Notes: generated by a model not told the origin, from the sequence alone. A stretch of 46,646 nucleotides of DNA from Kiritimatiellales bacterium (GCA_003246265.1 QKAU01000028.1:1-46646), one strand, 5' to 3'; positions 7,029 to 46,108 are shown, counted from the stretch's first letter. Made by a program: numbers and translations.

Positions 7029-7061
7029 GGGTAACGGCCGGGATTCTGCCTGCGTATTAAT
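7029..7061 (+). promoter_or_regulatory. Promoter-like motif of noncoding element, copy A
   Basis: GGGTAACG (7029-7036) and GTATTAAT (7054-7061) are separated by 17 bases. The identical pair with identical spacing recurs at 10113-10145, whereas the spacer sequences differ. Conserved boxes with an unconserved fixed-length spacer are what a promoter would look like. Which sigma factor reads it is unknown; the ECF-type factor encoded between the two copies is a candidate. Confidence 0.55.
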
Positions 7062-7065
7062 AGTC

Positions 7066-7174
7066 GAACCCAACAACAACCCGGTCAATTCCAGCGGACC
7101 AAGTGAACCCAAACCCATAGCTGGCAACCTAGGATTACTCCGACAAACCCCGCCTCTTGGCGGGGTTTTCTTTT
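7066..7174 (+). ncRNA. Putative small RNA or leader, copy A
   Basis: A predicted transcript of about 110 bases shares blocks with copy B (10150-10252) in the same order: GAACCCAACAA, AAGTGAACCCAA, ATTACTCCG, and a GC-rich terminator. Between the first two blocks lies a possible hairpin (GGTC/GACC). No ORF is conserved. It lies just upstream of the Ser/Thr kinase gene, so it could be a free small RNA or an attenuated leader of the kinase-sigma operon. The 9-base segment GCTGGCAAC (7120-7128) is the exact reverse complement of GTTGCCAGC in copy B. Confidence 0.5.
7145..7174 (+). terminator. Intrinsic terminator of copy A
   Basis: The stem AAACCCCGCC/GGCGGGGTTT with loop TCTT is followed by CTTTT. 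It would end transcripts of the porin gene and of copy A, and could attenuate read-through into the kinase gene. Confidence 0.85.
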
Positions 7175-7229
7175 GCCCAGAGTCCGGGCCGATGCTAACT
7201 TGCCCCCGTTTTTCCAGCCCCGGCTATCC

Positions 7230-9449
7230 ATGGACGAAATCCCCAGAAAAAAGCAGGAGCCAGGCGATCCCCCCCGCAGGCCCGGGCGTGAAATCGCCAA
7301 TCCCAACCTTTTTTCCGACCAGATCGTCTTCTCGGACACCGAAAAGATCCTCTTCGAGGAGGATCTGCACGACCGGCCCGGACAGGACGGCAACGGATTG
7401 ATGGATGGACGGCCGCACGAGCGCTACACCCCGGACCGGAAGCTGAACGAAGGGGGCATGAAGTCGATCTGGGAAGTCGACGACCACCGGACGGCGCGCA
7501 AGGTGGCCATGGCCCTCATCCAGGATTCGCGCATCGCCTCCGCCGAGGATATCGAGTCCTTTCTCTACGAAGCGCGGCTGACCGCCAATCTCCAGCACCC
7601 GAACATCATCCCGATCTACGACATCGCCCTCGACGAGAACGGCAATCCCTATTTCACCATGAAAGCCCTCAAGGGAGAAACCCTTGCGGAGATTCTCAAG
7701 AAGTTGAAGGAGGGCTACGAGGAATACCGGCGGCGCTATACGCGCACACGGCTGCTCGGCATCTTCCTCAAGGTCTGCAACGCCATCGACTACGCCCACA
7801 CCAAGGGCGTCATCCACCTCGACCTGAAACCCTCCAACGTGATCGTGGGCGATTTTGGCGATGTCCATGTACTCGATTGGGGCCTTTCCACGCTCATCAC
7901 GCATCTGGACGAAGAGGGCGGCGAACCCGTCTCGTGGCACAGCCTCGACGAGGTTTCGCTCGAAAGCGGCGAAACCCTGACCCGCTACCTCGAGAACGCG
8001 GCCCGTCGGCGCGGGCGGGGCAAGGTCGTGGGCGGCACCCCGGGCTATATGTCGCCGGAACAGGCCCAAGGCGTCCCCTCGGACATCGATTTCCAGACCG
8101 ACGTCTACATGCTCGGCGCCATGCTGTATGAAATCCTGACCTACCAGTGCCCCATCGTGGGCGCCACGGTTAAGGAGGTTCTTCACAAGACCGTCCGCGG
8201 CGAACTTCCGCCGCCAGCGAAACGGGCGCCCGGACTGCGGATCCCCGCAGCGTTGGCGGCCATTGCCATGAAGGCCATGCAGACCGGTCCTGCCGACCGC
8301 TACCCTTCCGTGGCGGCGCTGATCCGCGACATCCAGCAGTACCAGGAAGGCTTTGCCACGATCGCCGAAAACCCCACGTTCCTCACCCACGCAACGTTGC
8401 TGGTCAAGCGCCACAAGATGGCGGTCGGCCTCATTGCTGCGGCCCTTGCGGTGGTGGCCGCCATTGCCGGCCGCAGCTACCTCGCCATCAGCAGGAGCGA
8501 GCGCATCGCCGTCGACGCCCTGGCAAAACTGCGGGAGAAGAACGAATACATCGCCGCCACGGCCAAGCAGGTGGCGCCCGACTACCTCGACCTGATGGCG
8601 CAACAGGAGAAGAGCTTCCAGTTCAGCGCGGCCGAGCAGTCGCTCGATACCGGCCTGGCATTCGATCCATCGCTCGCCACGGGGTGGATGTGGAAGGGCA
8701 AGATCCTCCTGTGCCGCCAGGAGTTCGGCGAGGCGTGGCGCATCCTTTCAGGCGCACACGGCCACCCCGTCCAGCGGGACACGCCCGCCGTCCGGCTGGC
8801 CGAACGATACAAGAATTCCGCCCCCCTGCCGGATGCCCGGCTTCCCGGACTGGCAAAGGACTTCGTGGAAGGAAACGTCGCAGGCGGCATCCCCCGGCTC
8901 TTCTACCACCTCAACCGGGCCCCCTTCGACCCGGAGACGCGCTTCCCCGCCATCACCGAAACACTGCGGCTCCTCAACCCCAGGGTGGAATCGCTCCACT
9001 TCGGTTGGAAGACGGCGGCGGACGGCGGATGGGAGATCGACCTCTCCGGCAACGCCAACCTGGACGATATTTCGCCCCTGTGCGGGCTTGATATCCGGTC
9101 GCTGGATGCCAGAGGCACCGGGAACCCGGACCTGCGCCTGCTGACCGAACCGGGCCTCCGCAAGCTCGACCTGGCCGGAACGCAGGTCAGTCACCTGCCG
9201 GAGCTGGACCAGTTTTCGGACCTGGCGACGCTCAACATCCGCGGCACCCGCATCCGCAACATCGCCGGCATTGCCAAATATGCCAAGCTCAGCGAGCTCG
9301 ACCTAGGCGGGATCCCCGGCCTGGACGTATCGCAGCAGCTGGCATGGTGCAGGAACCTGAAGCTCCTCACGGTATCCGAGTCGCTACGGGAAGATCCCAC
9401 CATCCGCCTGCTCGCCCGCCGCGGCACCATCATCATCTATTCCCACTGA
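7230..9449 (+). CDS. Membrane Ser/Thr protein kinase with C-terminal leucine-rich repeats
   Basis: This 739-residue Hanks-type kinase has a kinase domain at about residues 67-370. The catalytic loop HLDLKPSN (196-203), the metal-binding DWG (216-218, in place of DFG), the activation segment end GTPGYMSPEQA (269-279) and the helix-C glutamate in FLYEARLTA are all present. The VAIK lysine position reads VAMA (92-95), so the usual ATP-anchoring lysine is missing. About 45 extra residues sit between DWG and GTPGY. One membrane helix (about 397-420) is followed by a TPR-like region and leucine-rich repeats (about 600-735, for example LRKLDLAGTQVSHLPEL). The ATG at 7230 is preferred over a TTG at 7173 that lies inside the terminator. 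The sigma factor starts one base after the stop, so kinase and sigma factor are an operon. Confidence 0.88.
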   Translation: MDEIPRKKQEPGDPPRRPGREIANPNLFSDQIVFSDTEKILFEEDLHDRPGQDGNGLMDGRPHERYTPDRKLNEGGMKSIWEVDDHRTARKVAMALIQDSRIASAEDIESFLYEARLTANLQHPNIIPIYDIALDENGNPYFTMKALKGETLAEILKKLKEGYEEYRRRYTRTRLLGIFLKVCNAIDYAHTKGVIHLDLKPSNVIVGDFGDVHVLDWGLSTLITHLDEEGGEPVSWHSLDEVSLESGETLTRYLENAARRRGRGKVVGGTPGYMSPEQAQGVPSDIDFQTDVYMLGAMLYEILTYQCPIVGATVKEVLHKTVRGELPPPAKRAPGLRIPAALAAIAMKAMQTGPADRYPSVAALIRDIQQYQEGFATIAENPTFLTHATLLVKRHKMAVGLIAAALAVVAAIAGRSYLAISRSERIAVDALAKLREKNEYIAATAKQVAPDYLDLMAQQEKSFQFSAAEQSLDTGLAFDPSLATGWMWKGKILLCRQEFGEAWRILSGAHGHPVQRDTPAVRLAERYKNSAPLPDARLPGLAKDFVEGNVAGGIPRLFYHLNRAPFDPETRFPAITETLRLLNPRVESLHFGWKTAADGGWEIDLSGNANLDDISPLCGLDIRSLDARGTGNPDLRLLTEPGLRKLDLAGTQVSHLPELDQFSDLATLNIRGTRIRNIAGIAKYAKLSELDLGGIPGLDVSQQLAWCRNLKLLTVSESLREDPTIRLLARRGTIIIYSH

Positions 9450-9450
9450 C

Positions 9451-10059
9451 ATGGCCGAAGAACAATTCAACCCGACGCGCGTCACCCTGCTCGCAAAACT
9501 CAAGAAGAGCGGCGACGATGCGGCATGGCTGGAGTTCGAGGGCATCTACCGGGGCTTCATCCTCAGCCTGATCCTGCGCATGGGTCTGAATGCGGACGAT
9601 GCCGAGGACATCAGCCAGGCCGTCCTGACCAAGGTTTGGCAGAAGATCGAGGATTTCGAATACAACCAGAACAAGGGCAAGTTCCACAACTGGCTGGCGG
9701 CCATGACCCGCAACACCGTCAAGGACTTCTTCCGCACCCGCAGGAACTTCATCACGGGGCGCGACTCGGTGGAGTACCAGGAGCAGTACCTCGGCATCGA
9801 GGAGCAGGTGCTGCCCGACATCGAGAACCTGGCCCGCGAAGAGTGGGTGCTGCACATCACCAATCTGGCATGGGACAACATCAAGGAGGGGATCTACGAA
9901 ACCAAGCGGGAGGTCTTTCGGCTGGTGTCCGAAGAGGTCCCAACAAAGGAAATCGCCGAGCGACTCGGCATCTCCGAAGCCAGCGTCCGGGTCTACAAGG
10001 CCGAGGTCTTCGAGAAAATGCGCGCGGAAATCACCCGGCTCAACCGCGAATTGGGCTGA
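9451..10059 (+). CDS. ECF-type RNA polymerase sigma factor
   Basis: This 202-residue sigma-70-family protein has region 2 around residues 20-90 (DAEDISQAVLTKVWQKIEDF, then KFHNWLAAMTRNTVKDFFR). Region 4 is a helix-turn-helix (VPTKEIAERLGISEASVRVYKAEVF) near residues 165-190. It resembles sigma factors that PVC bacteria pair with Ser/Thr kinases, where phosphorylation or protein contact may replace a classical anti-sigma factor; no anti-sigma gene is present here. Its ATG follows the kinase TGA after one base, implying coupled expression. The noncoding element copies on either side of this operon carry the same promoter-like boxes, so they are natural candidate targets. Confidence 0.85.
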   Translation: MAEEQFNPTRVTLLAKLKKSGDDAAWLEFEGIYRGFILSLILRMGLNADDAEDISQAVLTKVWQKIEDFEYNQNKGKFHNWLAAMTRNTVKDFFRTRRNFITGRDSVEYQEQYLGIEEQVLPDIENLAREEWVLHITNLAWDNIKEGIYETKREVFRLVSEEVPTKEIAERLGISEASVRVYKAEVFEKMRAEITRLNRELG

Positions 10060-10112
10060 AAAGCGCCTTTTTTCCGCCTCCTGGAGAAAAAATTGAAAAA
10101 AGTGGCTTCAAT

Positions 10113-10145
10113 GGGTAACGATCCCTTCCCTGTCCCCGTATTAAT
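10113..10145 (+). promoter_or_regulatory. Promoter-like motif of noncoding element, copy B
   Basis: GGGTAACG (10113-10120) and GTATTAAT (10138-10145) are 17 bases apart, identical in boxes and spacing to copy A at 7029-7061. It begins 53 bases after the sigma-factor stop. Confidence 0.55.
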
Positions 10146-10149
10146 GAGT

Positions 10150-10252
10150 GAACCCAACAATTTCATAGGGCGAATGCAACAACCCAAGTGAACCCAACAC
10201 GTTGCCAGCCCAATTACTCCGGCCCCGCCCTAACCCAGCGGGGTTTTTCTTT
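10150..10252 (+). ncRNA. Putative small RNA, copy B
   Basis: A predicted transcript of about 103 bases contains GAACCCAACAA, AAGTGAACCCAA, GTTGCCAGC, ATTACTCCG and a terminator, collinear with copy A. GGG and CCC segments between the first two blocks could form the equivalent of copy A's hairpin, although the sequence differs. The element is followed by the 3' end of the convergent protease gene, so here it cannot be the leader of a downstream sense gene. This favours an independent RNA. Confidence 0.5.
10223..10252 (+). terminator. Intrinsic terminator of copy B
   Basis: The stem CCCCGC/GCGGGG with a nine-base loop is followed by TTTTTCTTT. It ends the sigma-factor operon and copy B. Confidence 0.8.
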
Positions 10253-45622: not shown

Positions 45623-46108
45623 GGCAACCTTTCTTTCTCGGGAACAAGCGGGAAAAGTACCGGACACGGGCGAATCTGACAAACAAATCGTGCGGGATTT
45701 GGCATCGGGAAGGCCTCAAAAAAAACGGCCGGGCGTTTGAACGTTCGTCTGGCAAGGAGTCTAACTACCTGTAACAACTCCCTGAAAACATGGCTTCCTC
45801 GGAAGCCCTGTTTGCGGCGTGCGGTGCCCCCTTCCGTGCGCCGCTTTTTTTTGCTCTTGTCCCATTTCCGGGGGGACGGTGTGCTCGACCGCCGGGCGAT
45901 CCGCGCAAGGAGAGAACTTCCATGGCGGTTGCGGATTCCGTGTAGCCGCGATTCGTGATCTTGGCGTGGAGTCGCGGAACCCTCCCTGTATTTGCCGGCC
46001 ACGGGATTTACACCCCATGCCGCCGCCTTCAATGCGCCAGCGGACGGGGGCCCGGGATCAGCACCTTCTACCAGCGAACGCGAAGTTCCCCTCAAATGGA
46101 CCATGAAC
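45623..46108. other. Intergenic region between ompH and the rRNA operon
   Basis: About 485 bases without a convincing gene: minus-strand open frames here have no recognisable protein features. A hairpin at 45786-45813 pairs AAACATGGCTTCC with GGAAGCCCTGTTT (two-base loop, one mismatch). The promoter of ompH-lpxD should lie here, but I cannot single out -35/-10 boxes. Confidence 0.5.

Follow-up and report, generated by a model that had tools for sequence, protein, structure and literature searches.

Two copies of a small RNA gene flank a Ser/Thr kinase gene and an ECF sigma factor gene in the window, by which we mean the whole 46,646-nucleotide stretch of DNA that was analysed. They almost certainly belong to a real, previously undescribed and genus-wide family of sibling small RNAs (sRNAs) with an ECF-type promoter. 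The explanation that we consider reasonably probable as a whole is that these sibling sRNAs are controlled by the kinase and the ECF sigma factor and engage partner sRNAs. The source genome was judged to be a Pontiella (Pontiellaceae, Kiritimatiellota) from the named orthologues of its sigma factor, among them those of Pontiella sulfatireligans F21 and of a metagenome-assembled genome (MAG) of P. desulfatans.

Inspection of the window sequence recovered every block named in the preliminary description at 7029-7174 and again at 10113-10252, in the same order and with an exact 17-base spacing (Table 1). The RNA of about 105 bases with a built-in terminator that had been proposed from these blocks was borne out by the predicted fold, by covariation and by a terminator common to the copies. 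From 5' to 3', an unpaired GAACCCAACAA is followed by a hairpin whose stem covaries and whose loop is conserved, then by an unpaired UUACUCC and the terminator. The unpaired 5' end GAACCCAA was found in 40 of 44 copies and the unpaired ACTCC segment in 43; the large hairpin loop carried AACCCA, with AAGTGAACCCAA present in 29/44. In an alignment fitted to the model, which leans to the structure, 95.9% of cells were paired and two-sided changes occurred in all 14 pairs. None of 500 shuffles was as good, and slid registers reached 30-53%. The stems differed between copies and the loop and tails were constant, a pattern that would be expected of an RNA acting through its unpaired segments. The members have the characters of sibling sRNAs: related intergenic RNA genes, two of them in the source genome, with common unpaired segments and their own terminators. 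No Rfam 15 family scored above its gathering threshold, the best overlap reaching 29.1 bits where 55 would have been required. A peptide-coding role was rejected, as copy A has no ATG and the copies have no common reading frame.

Table 1. Coordinates of the RNA copies, the enclosed genes and the group ii partner RNAs. Positions are those of the window unless a contig is named.
Feature	Position	Strand	Details
Copy A blocks	GGGTAACG at 7029; GTATTAAT at 7054; GAACCCAACAA 7066-7076; AAGTGAACCCAA from 7101; ATTACTCCG 7134-7142	+	Terminator stem 7145-7168
Copy A promoter	7029..7061	+	-35 GGGTAAC (7029-7035), 17-nt spacer, -10 CGTAT (7053-7057)
Copy A small RNA (predicted)	7065..7174	+	5' end near GAACCCAACAA 7066; model R1 78.8 bits, genome-wide E 1e-16; fold; covariation
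Copy A RNA hairpin	GGT 7083-7085/ACC 7127-7129; CCAGC 7091-7095/GCTGG 7120-7124	+	AAGTGAACCCAA in loop
Copy A RNA 3' part	TTACTCC 7135-7141; terminator 7145-7168	+	TTACTCC unpaired
Kinase operon promoter, sigma70-like	7173..7201	+	-35 TTGCCC (7173-7178), 17 nt, extended -10 TGC-TAACTT
Ser/Thr protein kinase gene	7230..9449	+	739 aa; Pfam PF00069 E 2.5e-28
ECF-type sigma factor gene	9451..10059	+	202 aa; Pfam Sigma70_r2 E 3.6e-12; TIGR02937 above cut-off
Copy B blocks	GGGTAACG at 10113; GTATTAAT at 10138; GAACCCAACAA 10150-10160; then AAGTGAACCCAA, ATTACTCCG	+	Terminator 10221-10245
Copy B promoter	10113..10145	+	-35 GGGTAAC (10113-10119), 17-nt spacer, -10 CGTAT (10137-10141)
Copy B small RNA (predicted)	10149..10252	+	R1 122 bits (copy B is itself among the model R1 sequences), genome-wide E 1e-27; R2 124 bits
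Copy B RNA hairpin	GGGC 10168-10171/GCCC 10208-10211; GCAAC 10176-10180/GTTGC 10201-10205	+	
Copy B RNA 3' part	TTACTCC 10214-10220; terminator 10221-10245	+	TTACTCC unpaired
Group ii RNA, own genome (G000, L283)	C72:17320-17403	minus	Model R3
Group ii loci elsewhere	L279, L281, L291, L296, L301, L302, L305, L308, L311, L315, L318, L323		

A search with a covariance model (R1) identified homologues in 23 of 28 Pontiella genomes, with 1-4 copies in each and exactly two in the source genome, so that the small RNA family anticipated in the preliminary description was indeed found beyond the window. Covariance-model matches in these genomes had E values of 1e-38 to 1e-10, well past what chance would give. 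A rebuilt model (R2) applied to 288 genomes of the class returned the same 23 genomes and no credible match in the 260 genomes outside the genus. Two weak R2 matches in the sister family (L145, L146) were rejected as they have neither the promoter nor the conserved segments, and two R1 matches (L111:237-345 and L059:130-249) as they have neither promoter nor fold. Four genomes of 63-85% completeness (G002, G013, G018 and G022) gave no R1 match despite encoding the kinase or the sigma factor; G016, the sole genome of the genus without kinase and sigma factor, also has no RNA. The kinase, the sigma factor orthologues and the RNA have the same phylogenetic range.

The observation that the copies precisely flank the kinase-sigma pair holds in part of the genus only. 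Copies were present on both flanks in eight typical genomes (G000, G004, G005, G009, G017, G023, G024 and G027), and diverged copies on both flanks in two more (G011 and G019), including two sigma-side copies (L060:4202 and L059:903) below what the model can detect. Elsewhere there was a copy on a single flank (G006, G015, G021 and G025, as well as G001 and G026, where flanks are cut by contig ends), or, in several other genomes, on neither flank. In P. sulfatireligans F21, a copy follows the sigma factor gene. In genomes without a flanking copy, the RNA was found at unlinked sites that recur between genomes. In one such clade it lies 47-143 nt upstream of a DEAD-box RNA helicase gene (L094, L095, L098, L101, L104 and L108), some of these copies following the porin-like gene that is also found 5' of copy A; in other genomes it is bounded on one side by fusA and on the other by a pair of type II/IV secretion ATPase genes. 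The arrangement in the window is therefore one of several for this family. Since unlinked copies occupy conserved, recurring sites, the RNA most likely acts in trans. For the same reason, and because its likely partners are RNAs encoded elsewhere in the genome, the notion of a self-contained regulatory locus was not supported as it stood. The sigma-side RNA of the diverged G011/G019 clade (L059 903-1026, minus strand; L060 4202-4323; L115 1407-1529, minus strand) has a different 5' hairpin, GTAGT..ACTAC, with ACUCC in its loop, and retains the promoter and the AACCCACAG loop.

Because several copies exist and variable stretches separate their fixed blocks, both segments could be read as decayed remains of one mobile repeat. 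The copies are however few and at syntenic sites, promoter spacing is fixed in all of them and the stems covary. This constraint already contradicts the mobile repeat, to which we give a negligible probability.

The fixed-spacing boxes had been described as promoter-like, and their conservation is in full agreement with this: TAAC-N17-CGTA was present in all 44 aligned copies and CGTAT in 41. The usual form of an ECF promoter is a -35 AAC and a -10 CGT(A/C) at a spacing of 16-17 nt, and these elements were found in this arrangement in 44/44 copies. Besides the two copies, GGGTAAC-N16..20-GTATTAAT occurred nowhere in the 3.0-Mb genome (0 for the reversed control). The pattern RRTAAC-N14-C-NN-CGTAT matched copies A and B only in this genome and gave 62 matches across the genus, 40 at genes of this RNA family and 22 elsewhere, the latter to be compared with 18 for the reversed control. 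Because these other matches are at chance level genus-wide, the regulon of the enclosed sigma factor, if it reads the motif, seems to be essentially this RNA family. The likeness of the 3' GTTACTCC to an inverted -35 GAGTAAC was left as a coincidence, since a -10 partner is missing at the appropriate distance.

The enclosed sigma factor is likely to transcribe the RNA genes, an assignment based on gene position, the type of promoter and co-occurrence, and one that the near-exclusive use of the motif also fits. These genomes contain many related ECF genes, up to 28 in each, one of which could read the RNA promoter, and in six genomes the RNA is unlinked to the kinase-sigma pair; the sibling sRNAs might accordingly be read by a non-adjacent sigma factor, the gene neighbourhood being historical. 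We regard this as unlikely, given that 10 genomes, the most diverged clade included, have a copy on either side of the operon, that kinase, sigma factor and RNA share one phylogenetic range, and that no other use of the motif is evident.

The kinase product combines a kinase domain, a transmembrane-like stretch and LRR-like repeats. Orthologues were detected in 27/28 genomes of the genus and in the genus only, none being found in the sister family at E 1e-60. The sigma factor has orthologues with 73-91% identity in 24 of the other 27 genomes. Its region 2.2 reads NADDAEDISQAV and contains DAED, a motif absent from region 2.2 of ECF43 (PMC8999054); it is therefore not an ECF43 member. For kinase-linked ECF groups, activation by phosphorylation has been proposed (PMC8999054).

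The terminator of copy A lies directly 5' of the kinase gene, and copy A had alternatively been viewed as an attenuated leader of the kinase operon. Directly 3' of this terminator we found a TTGCCC-N17-TA promoter for the kinase, which is present in 18 of 23 orthologous loci and also in genomes with no RNA copy upstream. Because the kinase has its own conserved promoter past the terminator, copy A does not appear to be its leader. As already noted for copy B, the RNA that follows the sigma factor gene has no sense gene downstream to lead, and the RNA is also found at other sites where there is no such gene. An attenuator is thus highly improbable.

A search for the antisense of the RNA 5' end led to a second family, in which a terminator with the loop UUUCCYUCCUCUUUU follows a hairpin; the antisense 11-mer alone was hardly enriched over the reversed control once the RNA family to which it had led was set aside. 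Group i RNAs (C23:3205-3282 in the source genome) display UUGUUGGGUUC, antisense to the 5' end of the first RNA, in a hairpin loop. Group ii RNAs carry GGUUUGGGUUUCACUUGRGC, which is antisense to the hairpin loop of the first RNA with a one-base bulge. Group ii (the GGUUUGGGUUUCACUUG RNA) was recovered with model R3, which contained GTTGGGTTC and whose hits are biased toward part of the complementarity, as 13 RNAs in 12 genomes (the source genome and 11 others). It is a conserved intergenic RNA with a GAARCUC..GGUUUGGGUUUCAC hairpin and the CU-rich terminator loop, present once per genome except in G005, which has two. GTCAAC-like and CGTC/CGTA boxes upstream of it suggest another ECF promoter.

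Whole-duplex energies including the terminators were uninformative, and restricted segments were scored instead, each partner or control being matched with the RNA copies encoded in the same genome. Predicted group ii duplexes had z values of -2.0 to -6.4 (mean -4.4, n = 10), compared with a mean of -0.09 for control CU-loop RNAs (n = 30); the best, of about 25 pairs, were in G005, G017 and G024. The group i mean of -1.3 was weakly significant in a group chosen by the motif itself. The predicted pairing site is partly within the partner hairpin and nearly always has a one-base bulge. No compensatory changes between RNA and partner were found; in G014, a suggestive single case, the AAGUGAA of the RNA and the CACUUG of the partner are both missing. 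As in sponges and anti-sRNAs, extended complementarity between two sRNAs is kept across species. On these predictions, it is plausible to likely that the RNA interacts with its group ii counterpart.

AACCCA recurs after the 5' end in 44/44 copies, mostly in the hairpin loop, and the RNAs could instead sequester an RNA-binding protein by means of repeated single-stranded ACCCA motifs in a CsrB-like manner, the antisense match being secondary. We consider this improbable: the long antisense match to a conserved partner extends beyond the repeated core, no candidate protein is known and no Hfq gene was detected in the source genome. Hfq-dependent sRNAs imply an Hfq encoded in the genome, and no PF17209 match was found in this 96%-complete genome, control genomes being positive.

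Several features of the wider CU-loop family were also recorded. A likely further CU-loop sRNA lies in the window at 45784-45851 (+), with TTTGAAC and AGTCTAA boxes upstream, followed by CTGTAACAACTCCCTGA, a hairpin and a terminator (R3, 25.8 bits). Tandem arrays of CU-loop RNAs, with a spacing of about 160 nt, are present (L267, L269, L271, L280 and other R3 loci), and there are up to 15 matches per genome. An RpoE-like promoter, TTGAA(C/T)-N14..20-GTC(T/C)A, precedes 12 of 30 non-antisense CU-loop RNAs. At L273, L275, L276 and L317, the hairpin and CU-loop terminator are 3' of genes with a PEP-CTERM-like tail (a hydrophobic stretch and an RRRF-type end), suggesting 3'UTR-derived RNAs.

We propose that the membrane Ser/Thr kinase would sense a signal and activate the neighbouring ECF sigma factor, which would transcribe the RNA genes, nearly or wholly its entire regulon, from GRGTAAC-N17-CGTAT promoters. 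The RNAs would act in trans via three conserved unpaired segments, the 5' GAACCCAACAA, the loop AAGUGAACCCAA and UUACUCC. Other sRNAs would make up at least one class of partners, the loop being antisense to group ii and the 5' end to UUGUUGGGUUC hairpin loops, and one RNA would probably titrate the other, as in sponge and sibling-sRNA circuits. More tentatively, a kinase-activated ECF sigma factor with sibling sRNAs as its sole output, acting chiefly on sRNAs made from other ECF-type promoters, might form an Hfq-less RNA-on-RNA layer wiring several ECF pathways in the PVC superphylum.

In the literature searched, neither the small RNAs of Kiritimatiellota nor Pontiella sigma factors were the subject of any paper. 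What is new here is a defined RNA family, its promoter, a likely sigma factor and a candidate partner RNA, including the predicted complementarity to the group ii family; together they make the output of a kinase-linked ECF sigma factor directly testable. RybB and MicA are trans-acting sRNAs driven by an alternative sigma factor that also controls many protein genes. StsR of Rhodobacter is likewise a sigma-factor-dependent trans-acting sRNA (PMC8307010). The sigma factors of these systems control many protein genes too, whereas the motif described here is almost only at RNA genes. In Caulobacter, the CrfA sponge and the SisA-D sibling sRNAs form an Hfq-based system (PMC12559287), which resembles ours in its titration logic and in having a multicopy sRNA family and another sRNA complementary to each other, a complementarity that is predicted here; it differs in phylum and control, and here no Hfq was found and an ECF sigma gene adjoins the RNA genes. 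The Neisseria siblings NgncR_162/163 are related sRNA genes with common target-binding segments (PMC9973317), as is proposed for Pontiella, but they do not enclose a kinase-sigma operon and no sequence relation was seen. ECF43 (EcfP/PknT and EcfK/PknS) and ECF59/61/62 of Planctomycetes pair an ECF sigma factor with a Ser/Thr kinase (PMC8999054). As in those systems, for which activation by phosphorylation is proposed, the kinase gene adjoins the ECF gene with no anti-sigma gene between them; unlike ECF43, the Pontiella sigma factor keeps DAED, and the known outputs of kinase-linked ECFs are protein genes. It would be unusual, if true, for a sigma factor to serve sRNAs alone.
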